Part shown: positions 30,475 to 45,682 of the stretch, piece by piece
How positions within the stretch are numbered: position 1 is the stretch's first letter
Layout of the letters: each line of letters begins with the position of its first letter
Assembly (NCBI GenBank): GCA_011390365.1
Contig: JAABSM010000019.1
Span: 1-54,493, forward strand
DNA length: 54,493 nt
Direction: 5' to 3'
From: Gammaproteobacteria bacterium
GTDB taxonomy: Bacteria > Pseudomonadota > Gammaproteobacteria > Chromatiales > Chromatiaceae
Position numbers and translations under genes: made by a program
The notes under the pieces: generated by a model
The model's input: only the letters and a program-made list of their open reading frames with translations
Told to the model about the DNA's origin: nothing
The model's database searches: none

Positions 30475-30817
30475 TACCACCGCGGAACTGCCCGCGATCC
30501 CGGGAAAGCGTTACTTCACCATCGGTGAGGTCAGCGAGTTGTGCGGGGTAAAGCCCCATGTCCTGCGCTACTGGGAGCAGGAGTTCCCACAGCTCAAGCC
30601 GGTCAAGCGGCGCGGTAACCGACGCTACTATCAACGCAAGGATGTGTTGATGATTCGGCAGATTCGCAGCTTGCTTTACGAGCAGGGATTCACCATTGGC
30701 GGCGCTCGCCAGCAACTCTCCGGCGAGACCGCGAAGGAGGATTTGCAGCAAAGCCAGCAGATCGTTCGCCAACTCCGAACCGAACTGGAAGAGATTCTCC
30801 ATATTCTGAAGCGCTGA
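30458..30817 (+). CDS. MerR family transcriptional regulator (ihfA-linked)
   Basis: 119 residues from ATG 30458. MerR winged-helix HTH at about 20-90: [26 protein letters not shown] and [20 protein letters not shown]. The C-terminal 40 residues form a coiled coil ([21 protein letters not shown]). No metal-binding cysteines or effector domain. The ihfA-merR pair is conserved in many Gammaproteobacteria; the target is unknown. Confidence 0.9.
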
Positions 30818-31221
30818 TTCCCGCCGCGGAGCAAGCGCGCGGGGCCGGGCGTACCAACTCGTTTGGTCCCTCCGCCGGCGGCATGCGGCGTTCAACGGGG
30901 CTAGGGGCGTTTCGGCAGGGTCCGCCTCGCGCGGGCGGCGTGCTCACCATCCCCGTCTGCTGCGTCATTCACGCCCGCTCCATTCCACCCCATGAACTCA
31001 GCATGCCCGGTCGCGCCGGTGTTGCGGCCCTGGCACGCTCTCCGTCCGATCGCCCCGATTGCAAGTCGCCGGTTGCAATTGCCTGTTTCTTAGGGGATAC
31101 TTTGCGTTCTTGCTGATCATTTGTCAGGCCCCTTGCGGCGATGGCGAAAGACGAAAGCAAGTTTATGATTGAAAACGTTTTTACTAACAACATCGTGGTG
31201 CTCTCTTGCAGGAGGATGGAT
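30818..31221. other. Intergenic region between merR and the SCP2-like gene
   Basis: 404 bases. First 200 are very GC-rich (around GGCGGCATGCGGCG, CGCGCGGGCGGCG); the second half becomes A/T-richer and holds the palindrome at 31058-31079. In many Gammaproteobacteria a tRNA-Pro follows ihfA-merR; I do not see one. No gene supported. Confidence 0.5.
31058..31079. promoter_or_regulatory. Palindrome ATTGCAA-N8-TTGCAAT, possible operator
   Basis: Perfect 7-bp arms separated by 8 bases, about 145 bases before the SCP2-like gene. Size and spacing suit a dimeric regulator, but no promoter boxes are clear. Confidence 0.35.
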
Positions 31222-31617
31222 ATGGCGGATCTCTTTTCGGAAGAGTGGATGAAAAGCTTCATGGAACAGTGGAATGGCGAGCCGGACCTGAGTGATGCGT
31301 TGGCGCAAATCGACTTTTCCAGCGTGATCGGTTACGGTTTCGAGGGCGAGGATCAGCCGCGCGGCGTGCTGACCGTCGAGAACGGCAAGGCGACAGCCGC
31401 CGGCGCCTACAATGGCGAGACCATGAACTGGGATATTCGCTGCAGCGAAGATCAGTGGAAGAAGTGGATCGCCAAACCCCCGGGCATGATGGGGCTGGGG
31501 ATGGCGTTCACCTCCGGCAAGATGAAGTTCAAGGCGGGTGACTATGGCGCGATGCTCAAGGATCCGCGCATGGCCGGCCCCTTCATCAAGTCGTTCAGCG
31601 TCATGGGGCGCGCCTGA
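31222..31617 (+). CDS. SCP2-like sterol-transfer-fold protein
   Basis: 131 residues from ATG 31222, chosen because GGAGG (31211-31215) is 6 bases upstream; the ATG at 31216 touches the ribosome site. Pattern: short helical N-terminus (FSEEWMKSFMEQWN), beta-rich centre (GVLTVENGKATAAGAYNGETMNWDIRCSEDQWKKWI) and the SCP2-like end, GMAFTSGKMKFKAGDYGAMLKDPRMAGPFIKSF. No signal peptide. Family members bind lipids or acyl chains; the ligand is not known. Single gene between a GC-rich spacer and a strong hairpin. Confidence 0.75.
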   Translation: MADLFSEEWMKSFMEQWNGEPDLSDALAQIDFSSVIGYGFEGEDQPRGVLTVENGKATAAGAYNGETMNWDIRCSEDQWKKWIAKPPGMMGLGMAFTSGKMKFKAGDYGAMLKDPRMAGPFIKSFSVMGRA

Positions 31618-31631
31618 TCAAGACGGGCTGA

Positions 31632-31669
31632 AGGCCGCCCCGCGGATCTTGATCGGCGGGGCGGCCTTG
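31632..31669 (+). terminator. Strong hairpin after the SCP2-like gene
   Basis: Perfect 13-bp stem AAGGCCGCCCCGC / GCGGGGCGGCCTT with a 12-base loop; no long T-run. Separates the SCP2-like gene from the RND cluster. Confidence 0.7.
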
Positions 31670-31708
31670 TTATCGGATAAGTGAAAAGTTACGAGGCGGG
31701 AATTGGGA

Positions 31709-32866
31709 ATGATGGTAAAACCGATCCGGACACTGTTGGGATTTGCAGCGGCCATGGTGGCGGTGATGCCGGTCGCGGCACAGATCAGCGATGGCGAGAT
31801 CTATACCGTCACCCAGTCCAGAGACGTACCTCGCGTCTCGCTCGGGGGTACGGTGATCCCCTACAAAGAGGTCACCATGTCCGCCCAGATACCCGGGCGG
31901 GTGAAGTATATCGGAGGTATCGAGGGGGATCGCTTCAAGGAAGGGGAATTGCTGGTCGCGCTGGATGACAGCGAGCTGCTGGCGAATCGAAATTCCGCGC
32001 TGGCGCAACTCGGTAGCGCCGAGGCTCAGCTGCGTAATGCCGGTGTTCAGTTCAACCGCGAGCTCTGGTCGCCCAAGTCCAAGAGCGCGATGGGTGGTAT
32101 GGGCATGCCCAACCTGTTCGACCAGATGTTCTCCCGGCCCATGGAAGATTTTACGGGTACTCGGGATCGCGGGGTCGAGCGAGGCGCCGACATCTACTCC
32201 TCTCAGGTTCAGATCGCCCAGGCGCGAAACGCCATGGCCCAGGCCCAGGCCCAGATCCAGGCCATCGATGCCAAGTTGCGAGACGCCAAGAGCGTCGCCC
32301 CCTTCTACGGCGTGATCATGAAGAAGTTCGTCGAGGTCGGCGACACCATGCAGCCGGGCATGCCGCTGCTCAAATTCTCGGATATCGAATTCCTGCAGAT
32401 CGCGGTGGATGTGCCGGCGCGTCTGCGTCCCGGTCTGACCGAGGGCGCCTATCTTCAGGCGGAACTCGACGTGGGCGGGCAGATCGTGCCAGTGAGGGTT
32501 GCTCAGATCTTCCCCATGGCCGACGCCCAGCGACACACCGTCAGGGTCAAGTTCGACCTGCCCCAGGGGGTCTCCTCCCCCGGTATGTACGCGAAGGTGC
32601 TGGTTCCCGACTTTACCGCGTCGGCTCGGGAACACCCGATCATCCCGACCAGCGCGATTCGTTACAACGGCAGTCTCCCAGGGGTCTACGTGGTGGATGA
32701 AGAGGGCGAGCCCGAGCTGCGTCTGATCCGCGAAGGGGAACGGATGCCCAACGGTTTCACCAGCGTCCTGTCCGGACTGCGGGCGGGCGAGCGGATTCTG
32801 GAGAATCCGCCGCGCAACGTGGCGTCGGGCTGGTCCGGCGGGGCGCGGGACGAGAATAGCCGTTAA
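31709..32866 (+). CDS. RND efflux periplasmic adaptor (membrane fusion protein)
   Basis: 385 residues from ATG 31709 (TTG 31703 is possible). Signal peptide to about residue 24 (LLGFAAAMVAVMPVAAQ), no lipobox. Barrel-sandwich/lipoyl halves: VTMSAQIPGRVKYIGGIEGDRFKEGELLVALDD and AKSVAPFYGVIMKKFVEVGDTM. Helical hairpin in between, including an unusual Gly/Met/Pro-containing insertion (SAMGGMGMPNLFDQMFSRPMEDF). Then beta-barrel and membrane-proximal domains. It bridges the RND pump to an outer-membrane channel. The pump gene follows after 100 bases; no outer-membrane factor gene is present. First gene of the candidate cluster. Confidence 0.9.
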   Translation: MMVKPIRTLLGFAAAMVAVMPVAAQISDGEIYTVTQSRDVPRVSLGGTVIPYKEVTMSAQIPGRVKYIGGIEGDRFKEGELLVALDDSELLANRNSALAQLGSAEAQLRNAGVQFNRELWSPKSKSAMGGMGMPNLFDQMFSRPMEDFTGTRDRGVERGADIYSSQVQIAQARNAMAQAQAQIQAIDAKLRDAKSVAPFYGVIMKKFVEVGDTMQPGMPLLKFSDIEFLQIAVDVPARLRPGLTEGAYLQAELDVGGQIVPVRVAQIFPMADAQRHTVRVKFDLPQGVSSPGMYAKVLVPDFTASAREHPIIPTSAIRYNGSLPGVYVVDEEGEPELRLIREGERMPNGFTSVLSGLRAGERILENPPRNVASGWSGGARDENSR

Positions 32867-32966
32867 GCGTTCAGCGGCAAAAAATCGGCTTCTCCGCTTG
32901 CGGGCGGGGAAGGGTTCATCTCAATAAGGCCGCCGGATGCGCGGTTTCGGCACCATTGTTCTATAG

Positions 32967-35900
32967 ATGAGCGATCAAGAAAAACAAACCGGAAATCAGG
33001 GCGTCTCCGTTCTCGACGACGACGCGCACCTTGGCTTGGCAGGGCGCACCGCGCGCTTTTTCATCAAGTCTCCTCTCTCTCCGCTGCTGTTCGCGGCGAT
33101 GATGCTGATGGGCATCATGGGGCTGGTCCTGGCGCCCCGCCAGGAGGACCCCCAGATATCCGTGCCCATGGTGGACGTGTTCGTCCAGTATCCGGGCGCC
33201 TCGGCCGAGGAGGTATCGTCGCTGGCGATCGAGCCTCTTGAGCGGATCATGAGCGAAATCACCGCCGTCAAGCATGTCTACTCCGCTTCTCAGCGGGGGA
33301 TGGGCATGGTCACCATCGAGTTCGAAGTGGGCGAGGAGATGGGGCCTTCGCTGGTCAAGGTGAACGACAAGCTCGACTCCAACATGGACCGGATCCCGCC
33401 CGGGGTGATGCCGCCGATGGTCAAGGCCAAGGGCATCGACGACGTGCCGGTGGTGAATATCACGCTCTGGTCCAAGGATTTGGACGGCAACGGGCAGCCG
33501 GATGTGGACGACGGCCAACTGCGCATGCTTGCCCACGATGTGTTACAGGCCATCAAGGAGATCCCTGATACTGGTAATGGATTCGTGGTGGGTGGCCGCC
33601 CGGAACAGGTGACCGTGGAGGTCTTCCCGGAGCGACTCTCCGGTTACCAGATCAGCCTCGATCAGGTCGCGCAAACCATTCGCACCGCCAACAGCGAACA
33701 GCAGGCGGGCGGAGTAGAGGCGGGCGATATCCACTTCTCGGTGATGACCGGCACCTTCCTGGAGAGCGTCGAGGATATCTCGCGGCTGGTGGTGGGCACC
33801 CACAACAATGTTCCGGTCTATGTCCATGACGTGGCGCGGGTGATCCAGGGCCCCAAAGACGCGGATCAACTGGTCGCCTACTACACCGGTCCCGCCGGCC
33901 CCGAAGGCCTGCAAGCCGATGGCGTGCCGGCGGTCACCATTGCGGTGGCCAAGAAGAAGGGATCCAATGGCGTCACCGTGGCCAACGCCATCATTGAGCG
34001 GGTCGAGAGGCTCAAGGGGACCCGGATCCCCAGCAATGTGGAGGTCAGCATTACCCGCGACTATGGCGAGACCGCGGATGACAAGGTCAAGGAGCTCATC
34101 TTCAAGCTCTTCGTCGCCACCGGGTTCGTCTTCCTGTTGGTGCTGGTGGCGTTCCGCGCCTTTCGCCCCGCGATCGTGGTGGTGCTGGTCATTCCGGTGG
34201 TGCTGTTGTTTACCATCTTCGTGGCCTATATCGCGGGTTACACCATCGACCGGGTGAGCCTGTTCGCGCTGATCTTTTCCATCGGCATCCTGGTGGATGA
34301 TGCCATCGTGGTGGTCGAGAACATCTATCGTCGCTGGCTGGAGGAGGGGCGCACCGACGTCGAGACGGCGGTAGACGCGGTGCGAGAGGTGGGCAACCCG
34401 ACTATTCTCGCCACCTTCACCGTGATCGGCGCGTTGCTGCCGATGGGCTTCGTCAGCGGCATGATGGGTCCCTACATGGAACCGATCCCGGCGCTGGGCT
34501 CGGTGGCGATGCTGGTCTCCCTCTTCGCCGCCTTCGTCTTTACCCCCTGGTTGTCCATCTCGCCCTGGTTGCGCCCGAGCATGCGCTATCTCTCCGAGGC
34601 GGAAAAGCGTGAACACGCCAGCGCGGAGAAGATGGAGGGACTCTATCGCGGCATTCTCACACCACTGATTGAAAGCAAGGCCAAGGAACGGCTCTTCCGG
34701 CTGATCATGTGGGGCACGTTTTTCGCCATGTGCTCCATGTTCTACTTCAAGTGGGTGGCGGTGAAGATGCTGCCGCTGGACAACAAGCCGGAGTTCGCGG
34801 TGGTATTGGACATGCCGGAAGGGACCGCGTTGCCGGTAACCGTCAATACCGCCCACAGCATCGCCGAGAAGATGCGCGAGATCCCCGAGGTGACGGCGGT
34901 ACAGGTCTATGCCGGTACCGCACGCCCCTTTGACTTCAATGGAATGGTCCGCCACTACTACCTGCGCAGCGACCCGTGGCAGGGGGAGATCCAGGTGCAG
35001 CTGCTGCACAAGAGCCAGCGCGACCGATCGAGCCACGAGATCGCGGTGGCCGCCCGCGGCATGATCGGCGAGATCATCAAGGGCACGGGGGGCAACGTCT
35101 CGGTGGTGGAGATGCCGCCCGGGCCGCCGGTCCTGCAGTCGGTGGTGGCGGAAGTGCATGGCCCCGACGCCGACACGCGGCGTCAGGTGGCGGCCGACCT
35201 GACCCGCATCTTCTCCCAGACCGAGAGTCTGCGCGATGTGGACAATTACATGCGCGGCGAGTATCAATACTGGCGATTCAATGTGGATACCGAGAAGGCG
35301 GTGCGCCGCGGGATCTCCGTCGATGCCATCAATCGCAACCTCTCAATGGCCCTGGGCGGCTCCGCCATTGGCGACGTAAAGCAGCGCGCGGGCCATGAAC
35401 CGGTCAATATCGTCATCCAGGTACCGCTGGCGGAGCGTTCCCAGATTAGCCGCCTGGGAGACCTGCCGATCCAGTCCCAACAGGGGATAACCCTGCCGCT
35501 GCGGGAACTGGGCCATTTCGAGAAGGTGCGGGAAGACGACATCATCTACCACAAGGATCTGCGGCCGGTGGAGTATGTCGTCGCCGAAGTGGGCGGGCGT
35601 CTTGCCGCGCCGGTCTACGGCATGTTCCAGGTGGAGGACCTGGTTGCGCAACAGGATTACGTCACGCCGGACGGCGTGAGGCTCCACGAAGGCGGCATGC
35701 TAGACGATGGCTTTCACTGGTTTTCTCCCCCGGCGAGCGACAGTGGCTCCTCCATCGAATGGACCGGCGAATGGACGGTTACCTTCGAGACCTTCCGCGA
35801 CATGGGCGGCGCCTTTATCGTGGCGCTGGTGCTGATATATATGCTTGTCGTATGGGAGTTTGGCAACTTCCGCATACCGGCGCTGATCATGGCCCCCATT

Positions 35901-37091
35901 CCCCTCACCCTGCTCGGCATTATCCCCGCCCACATGCTCTTTTTCCAGATGGGCTGGGGCGGCGAGTTCACCGCCACCTCGATGATCGGCTGGATCGCCC
36001 TCGCCGGCATCATCGTGCGCAACTCGATCCTGCTGGTCGACTTTTCGATTCACGAGATCCAGCGCGGTGTGCCGGTCAAGGAGGCGGTGATTCGCTCATG
36101 CAAGACCCGTACTCGTCCCATCATGATCACCGCGCTGGCGCTGGTGTGCGGATCGAGCGTCATCTTTTTCGACCCCATCTTCCAGGGCATGGCCATCTCC
36201 CTCGCGTCCGGAGTCATGGTTTCGACTTTGCTGACGCTGGTCGTGATTCCCCTGGGCTGCATCAACGCCTCCAGATCCCTCTATGAGGTTGCCGCGATCG
36301 GGGCCGGCTCCGGCGCATCCCTGCAGGAGGTCGACGTTCTGAACGCGGAGCTGGACGAGGAGACCCAGCGGAGGGCCGGTTCCAGCAACGGACCCGGGGT
36401 GATGATGCGTATCTGGGCGGGGATCGTTACGGTTCTCACCATGCTCTTTTACCTGATCAGAGGCCTCTATCTGCTGATCGCGCAGATGGTGGCGAAGCGT
36501 CGTCACGATAATCCCGGGGCAGCGCAGGATCGACATCCGGACCGCTCCGGGGGCGCGGGGAGCGGCGGCGCTGCCCAGCCCCCGGTAACGACAGCGTCCA
36601 GGGATACGGCGGCGCGCCGGGCTTTCGACCAGGAGTCCTCCTCGCCACCGCAGGATGAAGGCGAATCCGGAGAGTCCGAGTCGGCGCCCTCACAAGCGGT
36701 CAGGCCGTCGCAAGGAACGATTGACGAAGAGGGTTCCGAGGCGAACAAGGAGCCGCCAGAGGAGTCCAGGCAGGCGGAGTCCAGGCAGGCGGAGTCCAGG
36801 CCAGAGGAGCCCGCGGAACCGAAGACGGAGTCGAAGTCGGCTCAAACCGCCAGCGACGGCAGCGCGCCTAAAAAGAAATCCGTGAAGAAATCTGTAAAGA
36901 AGACAGCGCCCGCCAGCAGCGCGACGCCCGCCAGCAACGCGGTCAAGAAGTCCGTCAAGGCAAAGACGGCAAGCAGCGCGATCACGGAAGCATCGCCAAA
37001 ACCCGAAGAGACGGAAGACGGGAAGAAAGGGGAAAAGGGAAGGCGGGGAATACGCCTGAAAAAGAATCGGGATGATGATTTTCTACTCTAG
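32967..37091 (+). CDS. RND efflux permease with extra hydrophobic segment and long Lys/Ser/Ala-rich C-terminal tail
   Basis: 1374 residues against about 1030-1060 for ordinary HAE1/HME pumps. The standard body is present: first membrane segment LLFAAMMLMGIMGLVLAP, porter domains, TM4 motif SIGILVDDAIVVVENI (about 438-453, proton relay Asp pair), second half with LAGIIVRNSILLVDFSIHE, ending near VMVSTLLTLVVIPLG. Two additions: a calcium-loop-like DLDGNGQPDVDD at 171-182 in the first porter region, and, beyond the twelfth helix, a further hydrophobic stretch (about 1146-1176) followed by about 195 disordered residues. These start acidic with three ESRQA/ESRPE repeats, then become basic (KKKSVKKSVKKTAP, NAVKKSVKAKTASS). 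Substrate unknown. The next gene overlaps its 3' end by 20 bases. Confidence 0.92.
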   Translation: MSDQEKQTGNQGVSVLDDDAHLGLAGRTARFFIKSPLSPLLFAAMMLMGIMGLVLAPRQEDPQISVPMVDVFVQYPGASAEEVSSLAIEPLERIMSEITAVKHVYSASQRGMGMVTIEFEVGEEMGPSLVKVNDKLDSNMDRIPPGVMPPMVKAKGIDDVPVVNITLWSKDLDGNGQPDVDDGQLRMLAHDVLQAIKEIPDTGNGFVVGGRPEQVTVEVFPERLSGYQISLDQVAQTIRTANSEQQAGGVEAGDIHFSVMTGTFLESVEDISRLVVGTHNNVPVYVHDVARVIQGPKDADQLVAYYTGPAGPEGLQADGVPAVTIAVAKKKGSNGVTVANAIIERVERLKGTRIPSNVEVSITRDYGETADDKVKELIFKLFVATGFVFLLVLVAFRAFRPAIVVVLVIPVVLLFTIFVAYIAGYTIDRVSLFALIFSIGILVDDAIVVVENIYRRWLEEGRTDVETAVDAVREVGNPTILATFTVIGALLPMGFVSGMMGPYMEPIPALGSVAMLVSLFAAFVFTPWLSISPWLRPSMRYLSEAEKREHASAEKMEGLYRGILTPLIESKAKERLFRLIMWGTFFAMCSMFYFKWVAVKMLPLDNKPEFAVVLDMPEGTALPVTVNTAHSIAEKMREIPEVTAVQVYAGTARPFDFNGMVRHYYLRSDPWQGEIQVQLLHKSQRDRSSHEIAVAARGMIGEIIKGTGGNVSVVEMPPGPPVLQSVVAEVHGPDADTRRQVAADLTRIFSQTESLRDVDNYMRGEYQYWRFNVDTEKAVRRGISVDAINRNLSMALGGSAIGDVKQRAGHEPVNIVIQVPLAERSQISRLGDLPIQSQQGITLPLRELGHFEKVREDDIIYHKDLRPVEYVVAEVGGRLAAPVYGMFQVEDLVAQQDYVTPDGVRLHEGGMLDDGFHWFSPPASDSGSSIEWTGEWTVTFETFRDMGGAFIVALVLIYMLVVWEFGNFRIPALIMAPIPLTLLGIIPAHMLFFQMGWGGEFTATSMIGWIALAGIIVRNSILLVDFSIHEIQRGVPVKEAVIRSCKTRTRPIMITALALVCGSSVIFFDPIFQGMAISLASGVMVSTLLTLVVIPLGCINASRSLYEVAAIGAGSGASLQEVDVLNAELDEETQRRAGSSNGPGVMMRIWAGIVTVLTMLFYLIRGLYLLIAQMVAKRRHDNPGAAQDRHPDRSGGAGSGGAAQPPVTTASRDTAARRAFDQESSSPPQDEGESGESESAPSQAVRPSQGTIDEEGSEANKEPPEESRQAESRQAESRPEEPAEPKTESKSAQTASDGSAPKKKSVKKSVKKTAPASSATPASNAVKKSVKAKTASSAITEASPKPEETEDGKKGEKGRRGIRLKKNRDDDFLL

Positions 37092-37863
37092 GTCCCTCTA
37101 CGCCACCTTGCTCCTTGGGGTGCTTAGCGCACCCGCGGCGGCGGAGTGGGGGAAATACCCGGAGCAAGAGGGGCAATCAGAGTATCGCTATCGGGAGCAT
37201 CCAGCCGAGCCCAATACCCAGGTGGCGCCAGGCTCGAGTTGGTATCAGAAAGAGCAATCCCCCTATTCGTTTCGTGAAGGGGGAGGGACGCGGGCGAGTC
37301 GGGTCGGTGATTCCGAGCGAAATCGCACCCATCCCGAAATGGAGCGTTTTCGTTACGATCCTTCGACTGGACGCCTGATACCCAGGGAGAGTGAGCAGGG
37401 ATACTCCTCGGCATATGCTTACCCGGGGGATCGACGCGGCGGACCAGGCAATACCCCGCCCGGCTATACCGCGCCGCCGCCAAGCTCCTATCGTTTCAGG
37501 GAGTTGCCCGAGCGCAACAGGGAAACCCGGAGCGGAGAGCTGCGCTATCGTCCGGATCAGAAGCTGGATGAAATCCCCTACATGCCCGGGCACGGACTGC
37601 CAAACTGGTTTGATTCATCCGGCGCGCCGCCGGTATTCCGACCGCGAGACGAAGACAGGCGGCGCAACACATCCGCGGGTTCGACGGCGCCGGAGTACCC
37701 TTATCCGCAAGAGGATTCCGAGTATCTCCGTCCCGGGGTTGGCCCGGATTATTCCTACCCAGCCGCTGAGCCCGGGTATCCCGGTCCGGCGGCAGAGTCG
37801 GATTACTCCTATCCGACGATCGCGCCCGGAGCGGATGAGGCGTGGATCTATCGGTCCTACTGA
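37072..37863 (+). CDS. Secreted Tyr/Pro/Arg-rich low-complexity protein
   Basis: 263 residues with a signal peptide (to about residue 25, LLLGVLSAPAAAEW). The mature part has no recognisable fold and no Cys. It is rich in Tyr, Pro, Gly, Arg, Ser and Glu, with repeated short motifs such as SxYRFRE, YxYPxxxxxY and PGYPGPAAESDYSYP. It starts inside the pump gene (20-base overlap) and the next gene starts 18 bases later, so it is part of the same transcript. It could be a structural or matrix protein, or an unfolded linker between envelope layers. I do not recognise a family. Confidence 0.75.
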   Translation: MMIFYSRSLYATLLLGVLSAPAAAEWGKYPEQEGQSEYRYREHPAEPNTQVAPGSSWYQKEQSPYSFREGGGTRASRVGDSERNRTHPEMERFRYDPSTGRLIPRESEQGYSSAYAYPGDRRGGPGNTPPGYTAPPPSSYRFRELPERNRETRSGELRYRPDQKLDEIPYMPGHGLPNWFDSSGAPPVFRPRDEDRRRNTSAGSTAPEYPYPQEDSEYLRPGVGPDYSYPAAEPGYPGPAAESDYSYPTIAPGADEAWIYRSY

Positions 37864-37881
37864 GGGAGGGGGAGAGGCGTA

Positions 37882-38643
37882 ATGGTGACTGCAAGGAGAC
37901 CCATGCGCGCCAGGTTGCCGTGGATATGGTTGACGGCGCTGTTCATCGCGGGCGCGACGCAAGCGGTGGAATTCTCCGCCGATACCTATCAGCTCGGTCC
38001 CCAGGGCGTGGAGCGGACCGGCAAACTCTATTTCGGGGTGGGGCGGGTGCGCACCGACTCGTTGGCGGAGCAGGGCGAGACGATTCGTATCGTCGACCAG
38101 GAGGCGGGCAGACAGTGGGTGTCATACCCGGGTGGGAAGGATTTTGTCGAGGAACCCCTGGAAGGGATGCTGGTAGAGGTGGGAGAGGGCGGCGAATTTT
38201 CCCCGTGCGACGGGGTCGTCGGGGCGAGTTGCGAAAAGCTGGGTCATGAGCGCATCGCCGGGAGGGCGGCGGTGAAGTGGCGCATGACCGTCGAGCATCA
38301 GGGCGCGCGGCAGACCATCGAGCAGTGGATCGACAAGGACCGGGCAATTCCGCTACGCTCAGAGATGTCCAACGGGCGGCGCATGGAGATGCGCATGGTC
38401 GGCGCCGACACCATGGACGGGCGCCAGGTCGAGAAGTGGGAGATGGTGATGTGGGGTGGAACCCGACAGATGCCCCAGCGCTCGTACCAATGGTTCGATC
38501 CGCGGCTCGGACTGGTGATCAAGGAAGAGTTGCCGGGCGGATTCGTGCGGGAACTGCGGAACATCAAGGTGGAACCTCAGCCGGATCACCTGTTCAGGAT
38601 TGCCGCGGATCCGGGTAGAGCCCCGGGCGCAAGGGCAAAGTGA
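37882..38643 (+). CDS. DUF4412-like (LolA-fold-like) periplasmic protein
   Basis: 253 residues; the GGAGAGG ribosome site precedes ATG 37882. Signal peptide about 8-29 (LPWIWLTALFIAGATQA). Then VEFSADTYQLGPQGVERTGKLYFGVGRVRTDS, HERIAGRAAVKWRMTV, YQWFDPRLGLVIKEELPGG and ELRNIKVEPQPDHLFRI, a pattern of short strands typical of DUF4412 and related outer-membrane lipoprotein-sorting-like folds. Two Cys (SPCDGVVGASCEK) could form a disulfide. Probable periplasmic carrier or surface-binding protein; ligand unknown. Confidence 0.7.
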   Translation: MVTARRPMRARLPWIWLTALFIAGATQAVEFSADTYQLGPQGVERTGKLYFGVGRVRTDSLAEQGETIRIVDQEAGRQWVSYPGGKDFVEEPLEGMLVEVGEGGEFSPCDGVVGASCEKLGHERIAGRAAVKWRMTVEHQGARQTIEQWIDKDRAIPLRSEMSNGRRMEMRMVGADTMDGRQVEKWEMVMWGGTRQMPQRSYQWFDPRLGLVIKEELPGGFVRELRNIKVEPQPDHLFRIAADPGRAPGARAK

Positions 38644-38671
38644 TGGGGTATCGATTGCCTAAGGGGGCGCG

Positions 38672-39310
38672 ATGATTACAGTCATTGGAAGTTTGAAAGG
38701 CGGTTCGGGCAAGAGCACCGTAACCTTTAACCTGGCGGTATGGCTCGCGATGACCGATGCCAAGGTTCGTGTCGTGGATATCGACCCCCAGGCGACACTT
38801 CGGGATGTGGTCGAGATTCGTGAAGAGGAGGGCTATCAGCCGGTGATTCATGCCGAGGGCCGGGAAGCGCTGGAAGATGAGGCGCTGAGCGAAGCCGATG
38901 AGGTGCTCATCGACGTAGGTACCGCCGACATCGAATCCCTCAAGCGGGCGGTCTCCATGGCGGATCGCATCGTCGTCCCGGTACCGCCAAGTCAGGCGGA
39001 CATATGGTCGACGCAGCGTTTCGTGAGGTTCGTCGAAGGCTTGATCAAGGAGAGTGACAAGAAGCCGGAGATCGTCGGTTTCATCAACCGGGGGGACACC
39101 CACCACGCGGTGCGTGAAACCCACGAGGCCGCGGCCGCGCTGGTGGCGCTTCAGGGGTTGCGCTTTATCAAACCCCGCCTCGCCCAGCGAACCATGTTTC
39201 GCCGCTCCTTCAGCGAGGGGCTGGCGGTATTCGAGATGAAGCCCTCCAGCAAGGGGGCGAGCGAGTTCAATGCGTTGTGCGGAGAGCTCTATCCCCACAT
39301 GCTCTCTTGA
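38672..39310 (+). CDS. ParA/MinD-family ATPase (orphan, altered switch II)
   Basis: 212 residues. Deviant Walker A KGGSGKST (9-16; signature Lys9 and Lys14), switch I-like DIDPQAT (36-42), hydrophobic strand VLIDVGTAD (78-86) where D-x-P-P/G is usual, then RIVVPVPPSQADIWS and KPEIVGFINR. ParA proteins form ATP-sandwich dimers that bind DNA or membranes and position plasmids, chemoreceptors, carboxysomes or pili. No ParB, parS-like site or plasmid gene lies nearby, so a cargo-positioning role for the neighbouring envelope proteins is more likely than DNA segregation. Lacks an amphipathic MinD-type C-terminal helix. Confidence 0.85.
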   Translation: MITVIGSLKGGSGKSTVTFNLAVWLAMTDAKVRVVDIDPQATLRDVVEIREEEGYQPVIHAEGREALEDEALSEADEVLIDVGTADIESLKRAVSMADRIVVPVPPSQADIWSTQRFVRFVEGLIKESDKKPEIVGFINRGDTHHAVRETHEAAAALVALQGLRFIKPRLAQRTMFRRSFSEGLAVFEMKPSSKGASEFNALCGELYPHMLS

Positions 39311-39361
39311 ACCGAGGGCAGGCAACCATAACAACAGCTATCAAGAAGAGGAGATGATCGA

Positions 39362-39994
39362 ATGAAAAAACTTTTTACAGCTTGTGTCCTGTTCGGGATC
39401 GCCGTCTGGGGTGTTCAGGGCGTCGCCGGGGAAGATGCAAAGGCGGGGCAGAAGGATCCGATGCAACCCTTCATGGAGGTCCTGCGGCAGTTCGGCAAGG
39501 ACATGGAGCATTTCGACCCCAAGGCCGCCGAAACCTACCTGCAACTCATGAAGGATGTGGTGCGCACCCGTAACGCGGCCGAGGCCACCATCTGGAAAAA
39601 CAAGGTCGCCGAAGGGCTGACGCCGGAGGATGTGGAGCAGTCCCTCAAGACGATCGCCAACGAACTCAATATCGCCAATGTCGGCGAGTTGCCGCTCTAC
39701 AAGGACGTCGAGGCGAAGACCGGTGAACCTTATCGTTTCGCCAAGATCTATATGTTCTGTAACTCGCTGACGGCGGCGATGATGATGGATTACAGCGACG
39801 CCTTCTCCGCCTATCTGCCGTGTCGCATCACCATGATCGAGGACAAGGAGGGTAACCTCTGGTTGTACGCCCTCAACATGGACCTCATGATCCATGGCGG
39901 AGAACCCCTGCCGAAGGAGCTGAAGGAAGAGGCGATTCGGGTCAAGGAGATCATCCTCGAGATCATGGAGCGCGCCGCTGAAGGAGATTTCTGA
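39362..39994 (+). CDS. DUF302 domain protein, secreted
   Basis: 210 residues with a signal peptide (to about residue 23, CVLFGIAVWGVQGVAG). The C-terminal half fits DUF302 (TT1751-like fold): FAKIYMFCNSLTAAMMMDYSDAFSAYLPCRITMIEDKEGNLWLYALNMDLM in outline (FCN...LPCRI...DKEGNLWLY). The N-terminal half is helical and charged. Two Cys are placed to form a disulfide. DUF302 proteins are frequent in sulfur- and metal-oxidising bacteria, sometimes beside redox or transport genes, without a settled function. Part of the cluster (51 bases after the ParA gene). Confidence 0.75.
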   Translation: MKKLFTACVLFGIAVWGVQGVAGEDAKAGQKDPMQPFMEVLRQFGKDMEHFDPKAAETYLQLMKDVVRTRNAAEATIWKNKVAEGLTPEDVEQSLKTIANELNIANVGELPLYKDVEAKTGEPYRFAKIYMFCNSLTAAMMMDYSDAFSAYLPCRITMIEDKEGNLWLYALNMDLMIHGGEPLPKELKEEAIRVKEIILEIMERAAEGDF

Positions 39995-40187
39995 GCGCCA
40001 AAGTATCACCCCGATGGGGAGGTCGAGCCTCCAGGCGACCCTGGTTGCTCTGGCCCGGGCAAGGCATCGACCTCCTTGGCAAGTCGCCGCGGGCATTTGC
40101 GCGCGGCTGTAATCATCAAAACCTTGTGCATGGGCGCGGCGCACGGAACCAACAGACAAGCGGTCCAGCAAGGGCCGGGATGAAGTA

Positions 40188-40691
40188 ATGGCGGAAGCAG
40201 AAAATCTCAAGCAGTCTCGCAATACCGGGGATCCGGACGCCCTGGACCCGGCTGCCGCCTATTCCATGGACCGTCTCTCCACCGCGTTCGAGAATAGCGC
40301 GAGGCGCTGGGAACTGATCGTCTATCCGTCGCTGTTCGCCTTCATCATCCTCGCCGCTTACGGCTTCTATCTCATCTTCAGCCTCGCCAAGGATGTTCAC
40401 TACCTGGCGATCAGCGTCGACTCCAACATGACCGTGCTTTCGAGCAACATGCAGTCCGTCGCCGAAAACATGGGACAGCTCTCGGGCAATATCCGCACCA
40501 TGACCGGCAACGTCGAGAGCATCGCCCAACAGGTCGCCTATCTGGAACCCATCAAGACCAACATGGACAGCATGGATCGTTCGATTCGTACCATGAGCGT
40601 CACCACCAAGAGCATGCAATCGGACATGGCGTTGATGAACTACAACGTCTCGCGTCCCATGTCGTTCATGAATACCTTCATGCCCTGGTAA
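40188..40691 (+). CDS. Single-pass membrane protein with Met-rich periplasmic coiled coil
   Basis: 167 residues. Cytoplasmic N-terminus (about 1-42), one membrane segment (VYPSLFAFIILAAYGFYLIFSLA, about 46-68), then about 95 residues of heptads with Met/Ile/Val at core positions: SNMTVLS, ENMGQLS, GNIRTMT, GNVESIA, and so on. It ends with NYNVSRPMSFMNTFMPW. Roughly one residue in eleven is Met. It resembles the N-terminal half of a chemoreceptor without HAMP or signalling domain. Possibly the membrane partner of the ATPase encoded 48 bases later. No named family recognised. Confidence 0.75.
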   Translation: MAEAENLKQSRNTGDPDALDPAAAYSMDRLSTAFENSARRWELIVYPSLFAFIILAAYGFYLIFSLAKDVHYLAISVDSNMTVLSSNMQSVAENMGQLSGNIRTMTGNVESIAQQVAYLEPIKTNMDSMDRSIRTMSVTTKSMQSDMALMNYNVSRPMSFMNTFMPW

Positions 40692-40739
40692 GGGCGATCT
40701 TCTTCCCAACGCAGCAAGGCCGATCCGGGCGGACAAGGA

Positions 40740-42527
40740 ATGCTTAACCGCAATCAGGAAAAAGGCTCCTGGCTGACGATCTCCCGAATGGTCGGGGAGT
40801 TGGCCAAGGCGGGCTGGATAAGCCGGGAGGACGCACTCGATCTGAATCGGCTGTTTCGTCTACGCGGCGCGGATGAGCCGGATATCCATCCTATCGTCTG
40901 GTTGTCGGGCAAGCACATCAAGAGCACCCGCTCGCCTTACGAAGAGCTGACCAGCGAGCGTCTGACCCGTCTGCTCGCCGATATCGCCCAACTCCCCTAT
41001 CTGCGCATCGATCCCCTCAAGATCGACGTCGACGCGGTTACCGATGTCCTCTCCAAGGCCTACGCCATGCGCTACCGGATCCTGCCGGTAGAGGTGAGCG
41101 ACGACCACGTCGTCTTCGCTACCGCCGAGCCCTTCAATCGGGAGTGGGTCGGGGAGTTGCGCGGCGTGCTCAACCGGGAGATCCGCTGCGTCGTCGCCAA
41201 CCCCCTTGATATCTCAAGGTATCAGGAGGAGTTCTTCGGCATCAGCCACTCCCTGCGCAGCATGCGCAAGGGCGAGAACGCCCAGCCCAGCGCCATCAAC
41301 AACGTTGAGGCGCTGGTGGAGTTGGGGCGCAGCGGCAAGCTCGACGCCAATGATCGGCATATCGTCAGTATCGTCGACTGGCTGCTTAACTACGCCTTCG
41401 AGCAGCGGGCCAGCGATATCCACATCGAACCGCGCCGGGAGGAGGGACAGATCCGCTTTCGCATCGACGGCGACCTGCATATCGTCTACGAAATGCCGAC
41501 CACCATCCTCATCGCCATTACCAGCCGTATCAAGGCGCTGGGGCGCATGGACGTGGTGGAGAAGCGGCGTCCCCAGGATGGCCGGGTCAAGACCAAGGCC
41601 CCCAACGGCAAGGAGGTGGAGTTGCGCCTCTCCACCATGCCTACCGCCTTCGGGGAAAAGATGGTGATGCGCATCTTCGATCCCCAGGTGCTGGTCTCCG
41701 ATCTCGGCGAGTTGGGGTTTTCAAGAAAGGACAGCGAGCTATGGACGGAGATGACCCGCCGCACCCATGGCATCATCCTGGTCACGGGTCCCACCGGCTC
41801 GGGTAAGACCACGACCCTCTACTCTACCCTCAAGTCCCTCTACCGCCCGGAAAGGAATATCTGCACCATCGAAGACCCCATCGAGATGGTCGAGCCCGAG
41901 TTCAACCAGATGCAGGTGAACCATGCCATCGGGCTGGACTTCGCCAGTGGCGTCAAGACCCTGTTACGCCAGGATCCGGACATCATCATGGTGGGGGAGA
42001 TTCGGGATATGGAGACCGCCCACATGGCGATACAGGCGTCACTCACCGGCCACTTGGTGCTTTGCACCCTGCATACCAATGATTCGGTATCCGCGGTTAC
42101 CCGCTTGATGGATATCGGCGTCCCCCCCTATCTGATCAACGCCACCCTGATCGGGGTGGTGGCGCAGCGGCTGGTGCGCAAGCTGTGCGTGCATTGCAAG
42201 CAGCCGGTCGCGACGGATGAATCGATCTGGCGGGCGCTGACCTATCCCTGGGAGATCAAGGCGCCGACCCATCTGCATCAGGGGAAGGGGTGTCTGGAGT
42301 GTCGCAATACGGGTTTCATGGGACGGATCGGCATCCATGAGATACTGCCCATTTCTACCCGGATGCGCGGCCTGATCAAGGGCGAGGCGGCCAACGACGA
42401 ACTTCGGGAGCTGGCCCTCAAGCAGGGCATGGAACCCTTGCGCATCAGCGGCGCGCGCAAGGTGGGGATGGGCATCACCACCGTGTCCGAGGTGCTGCGC
42501 GTCACCCCCGATCAGGATCAGCTTTGA
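40740..42527 (+). CDS. GspE/PulE/PilB-type secretion ATPase (orphan)
   Basis: 595 residues. MshEN/T2SSE N-domain at about 70-165, then the hexameric ATPase: Walker A GPTGSGKTT (about 349-357), Asp box CTIEDPIE, Walker B DIIMVGEIRD (about 412-421), His box GHLVLCTLHTND. A tetracysteine zinc site CVHC (about 482) ... CLEC (about 518) is typical of GspE/PilB extension ATPases. Such enzymes drive assembly of pseudopili or type IV pili. Here no gspC-O, pilC, secretin or pilin gene lies in the window; the closest partner is the small coiled-coil membrane protein just upstream. Its 3' end overlaps the convergent RND gene by 10 bases. Confidence 0.92.
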   Translation: MLNRNQEKGSWLTISRMVGELAKAGWISREDALDLNRLFRLRGADEPDIHPIVWLSGKHIKSTRSPYEELTSERLTRLLADIAQLPYLRIDPLKIDVDAVTDVLSKAYAMRYRILPVEVSDDHVVFATAEPFNREWVGELRGVLNREIRCVVANPLDISRYQEEFFGISHSLRSMRKGENAQPSAINNVEALVELGRSGKLDANDRHIVSIVDWLLNYAFEQRASDIHIEPRREEGQIRFRIDGDLHIVYEMPTTILIAITSRIKALGRMDVVEKRRPQDGRVKTKAPNGKEVELRLSTMPTAFGEKMVMRIFDPQVLVSDLGELGFSRKDSELWTEMTRRTHGIILVTGPTGSGKTTTLYSTLKSLYRPERNICTIEDPIEMVEPEFNQMQVNHAIGLDFASGVKTLLRQDPDIIMVGEIRDMETAHMAIQASLTGHLVLCTLHTNDSVSAVTRLMDIGVPPYLINATLIGVVAQRLVRKLCVHCKQPVATDESIWRALTYPWEIKAPTHLHQGKGCLECRNTGFMGRIGIHEILPISTRMRGLIKGEAANDELRELALKQGMEPLRISGARKVGMGITTVSEVLRVTPDQDQL

Positions 42528-45500
42528 CTGGCGGATTCAGGTTCATCTTTCTCTGTCTCCCTTGCCAGCGAGGTCACCCCGAAATCATGCAGCACGCTGT
42601 AGAAGGCAGGCACCACGAACAACACCAATAAGGTACTGGCGAGCAGGCCGAAGATAATGCTGGTGGCCAGTGGAATCAGGATCTGGGCCTGCATGCTCTT
42701 CTCCAGCAACAGCGGCGTGAGCCCGGCGATGGTGGTGATGGAGGTCAGCAGGATGGCGCGAAAGCGGTCGCGACTGGCCTGTTTCGCCGCCTCCAGTTGC
42801 GCCATCCCCTTGCCGACCCGGTACTTGAGAAAGGTCACCAGCAGGATCGAGTCGTTGACCACGATCCCCGCCAGCGAGGTGAAGCCGATGATGCCCGGCA
42901 TGGAGAGGGGCAGCCCCATCAGCAGATGCCCCCAGATCACCCCCATCAGCGCGAAGGGGATGATGATCATCACCACCACCGGCTCGATGTAGCTGCGGAA
43001 CTGGAAGCTCAGCAGGATGAAGATGCCGATCAGGCCGATGGCGAAGGCCCGCGCCATGGACTGGCCGGTCTTCGCCGACTCCCGCGCCTGGCCTTCAATG
43101 CCTACCCGGACGTCAGGAAAACGCTTTTTCAGATCCGGCAGAAAGTTCTCACGGGTATGGTTGACGATCTCGCGGGCGTTGGCGACGCGGGTATCCAGAT
43201 CACCCTGCACGGTAACGGTACGCAGGCCATTGATGCGCTGGATGCGGGAGAAGCCCCGCTGGTAATCGATGTTCACCACCGCGCTCAAGGGGATCTGATG
43301 GCCCTGGGCCGTGGTGATGCGGAACTCCTCCAGGTCCGTCAGGCTGGCGCGATCCGCCTCGTTCATGCGCACATCGACCTCGTAGGTCTCGGGCCCCACC
43401 TGGATCTCGGCGATCTTGGAACCGTAGAAGGCGGTGCGTAACTGGCTGGCGATGGCGGAGGCGTCGACCCCCAGCGCCAGCGCGCCGTCGCGCAGACTGA
43501 GCTGCAACTCCGGTTTGCCGGGGCGCAGGTTGTCTGATAGATCCTGCACCCCGGGATAGCGGGAGAACCACTCCTGGAGCGCCAGCGAGGCCTGTTTGAG
43601 CTGCTCCAGGTCCCGGCCCGAAAGGCGCATCTCCAGCGCGATGCCGCCGGGGCCGATCACCGGCTCCTTGAAGTTGAGCATCACCGCGTCGGGGATCTCG
43701 CCGCTCTCCTCCCGCCAGCGCTGAATGATGTCGTCGATGCGCCCGTTGCGCGCCTCGGCGGTGATCAGGTCGGCGCTGACGGTGGCCAGATGGGGGCCGC
43801 TCTCGTTGGCGTCGGCGTTGGTGTTGTAGCGGACCTGGATGTTTTGTACTAACGGACGTTCGCCGATTTGCAGCGGCGTGAACTCCGCATCCACCCGTTT
43901 CAGGGCCTCGCTTAACTGGTGTACTACCTCCTCCGTGCGCCACAAGGGGGTGCCCTGGGGCAGCAGCAGGCGCGCCTCGATGGTGTCCCCCTCTAGGTCG
44001 GGAAAGATCTGAAATTTGAGCTTGCCGCCGGCGACCATGCCGATACTCAATAGAAACAGCCCCACCACGCCGCCCAGGAAGAGGTAGCGGTTGTGGATCG
44101 CCCAATCCACCGCCGGGCCGACGATACGGTCGCGAAAGGCCATCAAGCCGCCGTCGAACCATTCGCGAAAGGCGGTCGCGCGCAGCCTTATCCACTCCCG
44201 AATCGGACCGCGATCGGTTTTGCGGTGACTCAGGGAGTGGGCGAGATGATGGGGCAGGATCAGAAACGCCTCGATCAGGCTGACCAGCAGCACCAGCACC
44301 AGCACCATGGGTATGAATTGCAGCACCTTGCCCATGTGCCCCGACAGGAAGGCGAGGGGGCCGAACACCGAGATGCTGGTGAGAAACGACGACAGCACCC
44401 CAGGCGCGACCTGACGGGTCCCCTCGATCGCCGCGCGGAAGGGGGCCAGGCCGTCGCGCACCTTGGTGGCGATGTTTTCGGCGATGACGATGGCGTCGTC
44501 CATCAGCAGGCCGATGGAGATCAGCAGCGCCACCATGGTGATCATGTTGATGGTCAGTCCCAGCAGACTCATGAACCACAGCGCGCCAAGAAATGACACC
44601 GGCAGGCCGAAGGCGACCCAGAAGGCGAAGCGCCCCTGAAAGAAGAGCCACATCACCAGAAATACCAATAGCAGCCCCTGCACGCCGTTCTTCACCAGCA
44701 GATTGAGGCGGTCCTCGACGATCGAGGAGCGATCCTGGGTGACCGTGAACGCCACCCCGGGCGGGGCGGTCTGGCGCGCCTGTTCGAGAAATTTCTCCAC
44801 CGCCGCGCGTACCACCAAGGTATCCTGCTGCTTGGTCTTGAGCACCTGCAAGATCGCCGCGCGGCGGTCGTTGAACAGGGTGCGGTCTTCGTCCAGGGCG
44901 AAGCGGTCGCTGACCTTGGCGATATCCCCCAGGCGGATCTCGCCGCCGGCGTCGCCGCCGATGATCACCAGATCATTCAGCTCCTCCACCGTTCGGCGCA
45001 GGTCGGTGAAGCGGATCAGATAGTCCCGTTCGTCGGTCTCCAAGGCGCCCGCCGGCAGGTCGATCCCCTGGCGGGCGATGGCCTGGGCGAAGTCGCTGAT
45101 GGAGAGGGCGTGGGCGCGCATCGCCTCCTCCGAGATCTCGATACGCAACTGGTGGGCCGAGAAGCCCTCCACCTCAACCAGCGAGATGGTAGGGTCGAGG
45201 TTCATGCGGTCCTTCAACTGTTCGGCATAGGCCTTGAGATCCGGCGTGGTCATGGGGCCGGTGACGGCGATGGCCACCACCCGGTCGGTGCGATTCAGCT
45301 CCTTGACGGTGGGGATCTCCACCTCCTCCGGGAAGTTGCTGATCCCCTCCACCTCGCTCTTGATGTCGTCCATGAAGCGGGGGAAGTCGCCACCCTCGGA
45401 CATCTCGATGCGCACCGTGCCTACCCCTTCGCGTGCCTCGCAGGTGATCTCTGCCACGTCGTTGATGCCGTCGATCGCCTCCTCGACCCGCTGACAGATC

Positions 45501-45679
45501 CCTTCCTCCACATCTTCGGTGGCCGCGCCCGGGTAGATCACCTGCACCTGGGCGTAGTCGGAATCGAAGCGGGGAAAGGTCTCCCGTTGCAGGTTGGGCA
45601 GCGCCGAGAGGCCGAGCACGCACAGAAACAGCAGCAGCAGATTGGCGGCGGTGGGGTGACGGGTGAAGAAGGCGATCAT
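42518..45679 (-). CDS. RND efflux permease (HAE1-like)
   Basis: 1053 residues, the normal length. MIAFFTRHPTAANLLLLFLC (first membrane segment), porter domains with VEEGICQRVEEAI, TM4 proton-relay motif SIGLLMDDAIVIAENI, second repeat with FTSLAGIVVNDSILLV and C-terminal FVVPAFYSVLH. The C-terminus is short and polar, in contrast with the pump at 32967. Works with the adaptor encoded 3 bases upstream; no outer-membrane factor in the window. Substrate unpredictable from sequence. Confidence 0.95.
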   Translation of the reverse strand: MIAFFTRHPTAANLLLLFLCVLGLSALPNLQRETFPRFDSDYAQVQVIYPGAATEDVEEGICQRVEEAIDGINDVAEITCEAREGVGTVRIEMSEGGDFPRFMDDIKSEVEGISNFPEEVEIPTVKELNRTDRVVAIAVTGPMTTPDLKAYAEQLKDRMNLDPTISLVEVEGFSAHQLRIEISEEAMRAHALSISDFAQAIARQGIDLPAGALETDERDYLIRFTDLRRTVEELNDLVIIGGDAGGEIRLGDIAKVSDRFALDEDRTLFNDRRAAILQVLKTKQQDTLVVRAAVEKFLEQARQTAPPGVAFTVTQDRSSIVEDRLNLLVKNGVQGLLLVFLVMWLFFQGRFAFWVAFGLPVSFLGALWFMSLLGLTINMITMVALLISIGLLMDDAIVIAENIATKVRDGLAPFRAAIEGTRQVAPGVLSSFLTSISVFGPLAFLSGHMGKVLQFIPMVLVLVLLVSLIEAFLILPHHLAHSLSHRKTDRGPIREWIRLRATAFREWFDGGLMAFRDRIVGPAVDWAIHNRYLFLGGVVGLFLLSIGMVAGGKLKFQIFPDLEGDTIEARLLLPQGTPLWRTEEVVHQLSEALKRVDAEFTPLQIGERPLVQNIQVRYNTNADANESGPHLATVSADLITAEARNGRIDDIIQRWREESGEIPDAVMLNFKEPVIGPGGIALEMRLSGRDLEQLKQASLALQEWFSRYPGVQDLSDNLRPGKPELQLSLRDGALALGVDASAIASQLRTAFYGSKIAEIQVGPETYEVDVRMNEADRASLTDLEEFRITTAQGHQIPLSAVVNIDYQRGFSRIQRINGLRTVTVQGDLDTRVANAREIVNHTRENFLPDLKKRFPDVRVGIEGQARESAKTGQSMARAFAIGLIGIFILLSFQFRSYIEPVVVMIIIPFALMGVIWGHLLMGLPLSMPGIIGFTSLAGIVVNDSILLVTFLKYRVGKGMAQLEAAKQASRDRFRAILLTSITTIAGLTPLLLEKSMQAQILIPLATSIIFGLLASTLLVLFVVPAFYSVLHDFGVTSLARETEKDEPESASQS

Positions 45680-45682
45680 GGC

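Follow-up and report, generated by a model that had tools for sequence, protein, structure and literature searches.

Sulfur globules are intracellular but extracytoplasmic, and PpfA/TlpT is one of the systems in which a ParA/MinD ATPase positions a cargo. ParAB, McdA and ParC are further systems of this A/D ATPase family, whose partner proteins carry charged, disordered terminal peptides according to the relevant sections of a family survey (PMC10241942). According to the corresponding part of a ParA–ParB study (PMC12462528), aliphatic and basic residues make up the ParB tags. Here we compare with these systems a cluster of eight genes (A to H; 31709..42527, + strand) in a gammaproteobacterial stretch of 54,493 nucleotides, contig JAABSM010000019.1, which is called the window throughout (contig C80 in our numbering of a 4.26-Mb genome in 169 contigs). 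The cluster includes a resistance-nodulation-division (RND) pump with its adaptor, a ParA-family ATPase, secreted proteins, a coiled-coil protein encoded by gene G (the coil) and a type IV pilus ATPase encoded by gene H.

Since the same set and order of genes recurs in many gammaproteobacterial families, we regard genes A to G as the local copy of a widespread gammaproteobacterial envelope module, found mostly in sulfur oxidisers. By gene content, the module consists of an adaptor, an RND pump, variable secreted proteins of low-complexity and DUF4412/LolA-like kinds, a ParA, often a tetratricopeptide repeat (TPR) protein and a DUF302 protein, the coil, and often a dynamin-like GTPase. We give an even chance to the reading that this ParA positions the pump through the tail of the pump, in a machine serving sulfur-globule storage, with H a separate pilus motor. 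The ParA-linked tag of the pump and the tie to sulfur globule proteins are the main new claims of this study, and the sulfur link had not been foreseen in the original prediction for this DNA. In titles and the opening parts of abstracts that combine sulfur globules with positioning, RND, dynamin or invagination, and in those on ParA-like positioning of pumps or transporters, we found no description of the module; subscription journals and supplements were outside the scope of both searches.

A pump tag that accompanies ParA

Gene E (38672..39310, + strand) encodes a ParA-family ATPase of the ParF type (CbiA, 52.3 bits) with the deviant Walker A motif KGGSGKST, as in the described ParA/MinD systems. 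The motif was invariant in 18 of 18 sequences, and the nearest solved chains were ParF and a ParA. The putative partner of E is the RND pump encoded by gene B (32967..37091, + strand; 1374 residues; PF00873, 483.5 bits), which has an unusually long C-terminal tail past its last core transmembrane segment (residues 1099–1374; 36261..37088, + strand). This tail is mostly non-conserved except for a final motif, RRGIRLK (residues 1359–1365; 37041..37061, + strand), which we propose as the tag contacted by ParA. Each position of the motif showed the consensus residue in 42–46 of 50 sequences, and 38 of 51 tagged pumps carried exactly RRGIRLK, the others having near variants such as RRGIQLK. The putative tag would resemble the charged, disordered terminal tags of ParA/MinD partners, as these are characterized in the sections cited above (PMC10241942, PMC12462528). 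Unlike in those systems, the tag is at the C-terminus of a presumed partner that is a membrane transporter, and none of the eight genes was recognised as ParB-like. Those sections name no RND pump as a cargo.

The adaptor encoded by gene A (31709..32866, + strand) is a membrane fusion protein (TIGR01730, 149.8 bits; cut-off, 94.9). A and B belong to the same families as the components of tripartite RND efflux systems such as AcrAB, MexAB and CusBA, and relay-type residues are conserved: D444, D445, R1018 and R1050 of B, which we take to be equivalent to the proton relay of AcrB, were invariant in 50 of 50 pump sequences. In contrast to these efflux systems, B has the long tail with the RRGIRLK tag, and no outer-membrane factor was found among the eight genes with Pfam and NCBIfam (the rest of the genome was not searched for one). 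B scored well short of all the NCBIfam cut-offs listed for multidrug or metal pumps.

The tag and ParA were present or absent together in nearly all loci. To score the tag we used a loose pattern that accepted RRGIRLK or near variants within the last 130 residues, and ParA was counted at more than 100 bits on the same strand. Of 112 loci, duplicate genomes included, 104 had both and five had neither; two had the tag only, and the sole locus with ParA only (L113) has a pump tail masked by N. Among 39 loci fetched after the idea had been noted, ten had a pump, and all ten agreed (six with both, four with neither), three of the four negative and some of the six positive pumps being from families already represented. 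When the non-duplicate loci were considered, the 59 pumps comprised 48 with tag and ParA, nine with neither, two with the tag only and none with ParA but without the tag. Furthermore, a ParA of this subfamily was not found genome-wide in the nine genomes with a tagless pump, eight of which are at least 95% complete (G234, 72%). The best ParA scores in these nine genomes were 61, 54, 56, 38, 26, 76, 55, 26 and 29 bits, and member ParAs in the other genomes searched scored 245–308 bits (169 in G141). Basic residues (K+R) outnumbered acidic residues (D+E) in 46 of 50 tag-bearing tails versus three of nine tagless tails.

We placed these states on a pump tree built from the cores, with the tail left out and L201 dropped as too short. 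The starred branches of this tree require the ParA state to change four or more times. One of the two tag-only loci, L222, has its ParA elsewhere in its genome (168.7 bits). With L222 scored by genome and the other tag-only locus, L079, not counted, five changes were needed for each trait, and both traits were absent in the same nine rows. The absence of the tag where ParA is missing suggests that the cell places the pump deliberately, and it would probably be placed where sulfur stores are built. The original prediction had the pump or an export complex placed by the ParA-like protein; the joint presence and absence of tag and ParA lends comparative support to this idea, while direct binding of the tag by ParA, like the pump substrate and the globule function, is what we infer from sequence.

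Co-occurrence with sulfur globule proteins

Secreted proteins in two distant modules (L219 and L229) matched PF17228, the sulphur globule protein family (SGP), at 34.4 and 40.0 bits (cut-off, 26.7). In class-wide searches for the coil, dsrA and SGP, each covering 369 genomes that were taken as the same draw, the coil was found in 81 genomes, dsrA in 118 (E up to 1e-40) and SGP in 56. The coil was present in 53 of the 56 SGP-positive genomes versus 28 of the 313 others (p 2e-39). At the family level (Fisher), 26 of 27 SGP-positive families had the coil, with the family total estimated as 167, the highest family code seen, and the weak coil families f57, f105, f110, f122 and f131 omitted. The class-wide SGP search gave no match in any of 14 control genomes and is incomplete, as G188, the source of L229, was not listed. 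SGP matches were also common in the genomes of 93 relatives (55 of 93).

SGP genes also occur close to the coil. Among the matches listed, 17 same-contig pairs of SGP and coil were picked by eye; six were at least 13 kb apart and 11 were 1.5–4.4 kb apart. In all 11 near pairs the SGP match, which in one case (G137, 25.7 bits) was just under the PF17228 cut-off, lay upstream and on the strand of the coil. The window genome has five SGP matches, all on other contigs, and its dsrA is in two pieces. The comparison with SgpA–D of Allochromatium vinosum has two sides: in other families, PF17228 proteins are encoded within the module or close to it and accompany it across genomes, and the window's own C and D are not PF17228 matches.

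Two simpler identities of the coil were rejected. Its presence is not equivalent to that of dsrA, since the two overlapped in 59 genomes (coil at E<1e-20) but ten coil-positive genomes had no dsrA and 59 dsrA-positive genomes had no coil. Nor do we take the coil to be SgpD, going by the description of the latter as a protein with a cleavable signal peptide and a transcription unit of its own (PMC10386293, in the part dealing with SgpD). Separately, in four genomes from two families (G114, G119, G252 and G355; contigs C25, C122, C150 and C384), a coil-family gene and dsrA share a contig and are about 5–6 kb apart.

A number of observations weigh against a ParA that positions the pump in the service of sulfur globules. 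On the side of the tag, two tag-bearing loci (L222 and L079) have no linked ParA, and the genome of L079, which is 76% complete, shows no ParA. The locus-level states on the pump tree need seven ParA changes versus five tag changes. An independent-pairs sign test on the starred branches was concordant in four of four pairs (p 0.125), and only four to five independent pairs are available, where fewer than six cannot reach 0.05. The window tail is not basic overall (K+R 41, D+E 41); only its last 100 residues are (K+R 24, D+E 15). In addition, most tails, including that of the window, hold a hydrophobic stretch 30–80 residues past the last core helix, and this stretch, if it were a thirteenth membrane helix, would place the tag in the periplasm. 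We take the tag to be cytoplasmic because the stretch is absent in eight loci that have both tag and ParA (L195, L212, L219, L221, L223, L228, L230 and L251). On the side of the globules, the cluster in the window contains no SGP gene, and C has no PF17228 match; PF17228 was also not among the 11 families matched by 21 D sequences. No SGP match was found in 28 of the 81 coil-positive genomes, although the search misses some (G188). Finally, a ParA-less module is present in an SGP-positive genome (G261); ParA is therefore not needed for globules.

These observations bear on a possible, though in our judgment doubtful, alternative, in which the module serves the envelope or lipid export in general and its co-occurrence with SGP reflects only a shared sulfur-oxidising lifestyle; ParA would still place the pump. 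An RND pump together with a LolA/MucB-like secreted protein resembles lipid-carrier export, and the 28 coil-positive genomes without an SGP match fit such a system. In contrast, a shared lifestyle does not readily account for the association within dsrA-positive genomes, taken as sulfur oxidisers, in which the coil (E<1e-20) was found in 44 of 50 SGP-positive versus 15 of 68 SGP-negative genomes (p 6e-13), and the proximity of SGP matches to the coil in 11 genomes likewise speaks against this alternative.

In the mechanism that we propose for positioning of the pump, ParA would be an add-on to the module and the pump its cargo. Nucleoid-bound ParA-ATP dimers would bind RRGIRLK at the end of the cytoplasmic tail of the pump, as the tags of ParB and ParG bind their ParAs, and the binding of pump trimers would space the pump complexes along the cell. 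The pump and adaptor, the DUF4412/LolA-like protein D and the secreted proteins may move hydrophobic or protein cargo in the periplasm, while the periplasmic coil of G may tie the complex to the globule side and the GTPase, where present, may shape the membrane around the globule. The most likely role of the pump sites would be in producing, loading or passing on sulfur globules. Because ParA-less modules occur in SGP-positive genomes such as G261, ParA should affect the placement or inheritance of globules and not their formation. We put forward the fuller form of this model only tentatively: a dedicated ParA of gammaproteobacterial sulfur oxidisers would space the RND pump through the C-terminal tag, and the export sites so placed, coupled through the coil and in many lineages the GTPase, would place and partition the extracytoplasmic sulfur globules.

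If true, this would extend ParA-type inheritance to a mineral-storage organelle on the other side of the membrane, with a transporter as the cargo. It would add a new class of ParA cargo, the transporter, and a new, C-terminal tag position. It would also provide candidate machinery for the placement and inheritance of sulfur globules that can be tested in A. vinosum, in which genes have been deleted and fluorescent fusions constructed (PMC10386293, experimental part).

The coiled-coil protein and the secreted proteins

Gene G (40188..40691, + strand) encodes a bitopic coiled-coil protein, as judged from the predicted topology and an alignment of 24 sequences (54 viewed), and has no match in Pfam or NCBIfam. 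It comprises a conserved cytosolic RLSxAFExSARRWE stretch, one membrane helix, a methionine-rich coil and a C-terminal RPMxFMNxFMPW. Most of the invariant residues in the alignment are in the cytosolic and membrane part, as would be expected if ParA positioned G through the RLSxAFExSARRWE stretch and the pump tail served another partner. We consider this arrangement improbable. The SARRWE stretch is kept in eight of nine ParA-less loci and is missing in three of the six ParA-bearing loci viewed (L223, L224 and L228), whereas the pump is tagless in all nine of those ParA-less loci. The pump is therefore the likelier contact of ParA, since the SARRWE stretch of G does not follow the presence of ParA.

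The secreted proteins between pump and coil are variable. Protein C (37072..37863, + strand) is proline/tyrosine-rich, has no match in Pfam or NCBIfam and contains the motifs YRYRE and YRFRE at residues 38 and 140. It is poorly conserved: tblastn found relatives in two of 62 loci from named genomes, and other secreted proteins with little similarity fill its place. Protein D (37882..38643, + strand) is a secreted DUF4412/MucB-LolA-like protein in which two cysteines, C109 and C117, are invariant. In its family, 19 of 21 sequences matched DUF4412 with E values no higher than 1 (best, 7e-8; window copy, 0.051); a match to MucB_RseB (7.7e-4) was under the cut-off, and a PDB profile search gave MucB at E 0.04 only. 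Gene F (39362..39994, + strand) encodes a DUF302 protein with an N-terminal hydrophobic segment (PF03625, 44 bits; cut-off, 23).

The motifs of C belong to a short YRFRP-like pattern, which was defined by eye on loci L038–L092. In the window family, it had 44 matches in 67 unlabelled ORFs (open reading frames) between pump and coil versus one in 561 other ORFs. In the named loci L093–L172, which share some genomes with the defining set, 71 matches were found in 75 module ORFs versus none in 664 other ORFs. The carriers are secreted module proteins encoded between pump and coil as well as some of the TPR linkers, and no such motif was found in 18 distant loci. The motif may be a docking motif for a receptor of the module. 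A different feature, a PPPPGPY-like N-terminal stretch, was observed in the first secreted ORF behind the pump in several distant families (L209, L212, L219, L221, L228 and L229).

Recurrence of the array and the pilus motor behind it

All eight ORFs are open and on the + strand at the positions assigned in the original prediction, and its account of their spacing was confirmed: the gaps are 100 bases between A and B, an overlap of 20 bases (-20) between B and C, then 18, 28 and 51 bases, 193 bases between F and G, and 48 bases between G and H. In 30800–42900, one sigma-70-like site was found, on the - strand, versus 3.6 expected from shuffles, a result that is little informative.

The gene neighbourhood was followed in other genomes through G. 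In the genomes of the 93 relatives, matches to G at E up to 0.001 were present in 54 (the window's own and weak matches counted), and 55 coil loci were fetched; in most window-family loci among these, the order adaptor, pump, secreted proteins, ParA and coil recurs. A scan of contigs from named genomes gave 432 coil relatives, of which the best 80 were kept. The titles of these 80 name Sedimenticola, Thiodiazotropha, Thiocapsa, Allochromatium, Thiohalocapsa, other Chromatiaceae or Chromatiales and unclassified Gammaproteobacteria. The 62 of the 80 in which the sequence upstream of the coil extends for 8 kb or more carried, on the strand of the coil, ParA in 62, the adaptor in 58 and the pump in 57 cases, a linkage far above chance. 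Other members were less frequent in the 62 loci: 36 had protein D, 15 DUF302, 14 gene Z (described below), two protein C and one TfpB (L093). In a separate set of 39 distant loci, the module recurs across families of the class; there, a TPR protein often precedes the coil and a dynamin-like GTPase often follows it. Coil relatives free of the module exist elsewhere, among both the 55 and the 39 loci. Thus, on the neighbourhood check that had been proposed for this cluster, the parts A to G recur together in many genera and families.

The module GTPase of L226 matched PF00350 at 50.5 bits. No dynamin-like GTPase was found beside the window cluster; the one match in the window genome, at 79507-81024 of contig C81, is 67% identical to a module copy.

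Gene H (40740..42527, + strand) differs from A to G in its distribution. The original prediction had called its product an orphan GspE that, on one reading, powers or assembles the pump. Instead, H, named a secretion ATPase by Pfam and NCBIfam, passes the cut-off of the NCBIfam equivalog TfpB (NF053534) with 858.5 bits over residues 11–590 (cut-off, 850). TfpB of Acinetobacter baylyi is a second pilus extension motor beside PilB, according to the part of the report concerned with these motors (PMC8213720). H resembles it in passing the equivalog cut-off and differs in that it sits behind a non-pilus array, its role here being assigned from sequence alone. No pilin, platform or secretin genes were found among the cluster genes with Pfam and NCBIfam. 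Two further pairs of ATPase and platform protein, at L001 and L002 of the window genome, are read as GspE-GspF and PilB-PilC, respectively.

The TfpB cut-off was exceeded in 14 of the 93 genomes. TfpB stands directly behind the coil only in the window genome (G000) and in one genome of the same genus (G001), among the genomes examined. In eight other relatives (G003, G005, G017, G029, G036, G040, G044 and G047), which have a clear coil and a TfpB match above 740 bits (G005, G029 and a partial match in G040 being under the cut-off), the TfpB gene lies 2.5 Mb from the coil or on a different contig, and the coil is followed by other genes. We therefore take H to be not the engine of the module but a pilus motor that came to stand behind the array in this genus, a lineage-specific neighbour and not a module member. 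The packed order, the 48-base gap between G and H and the same placement in the same-genus genome would suit a machine in which all eight genes act together, with a GspE-like ATPase as the power source or assembly factor of the pump; given the identity of H as TfpB and its location away from the coil in the eight relatives, we regard such a machine as very unlikely. A chance neighbourhood of unrelated genes, to which the variation of optional members between lineages might point, is refuted by the linkage in the named loci, the same order in families across the class and the co-variation of tag and ParA.

A ninth gene on the same strand, Z (31141..31617, + strand), encodes a 158-residue protein and lies 91 bases upstream of A. 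It is highly conserved and heads the array in part of the family, with relatives 55–82% identical in nine other loci. Its assignment as SCP2 was not retained, as this was only a weak lead (one of ten members at E 0.009) without support from the PDB search. Behind the coil, at about 0.5 kb, a protein of about 305 residues, read as 5'-nucleotidase-like, was seen in L040–L081; its cluster has members in 27 loci, mostly directly behind the coil, and in the window that spot is occupied by TfpB. Beyond H, a second pair of RND pump and adaptor lies on the - strand (42518-47056), tail to tail with H and overlapping its end by 10 bases, and the C-terminus of this second pump is free of the RRGIRLK tag.

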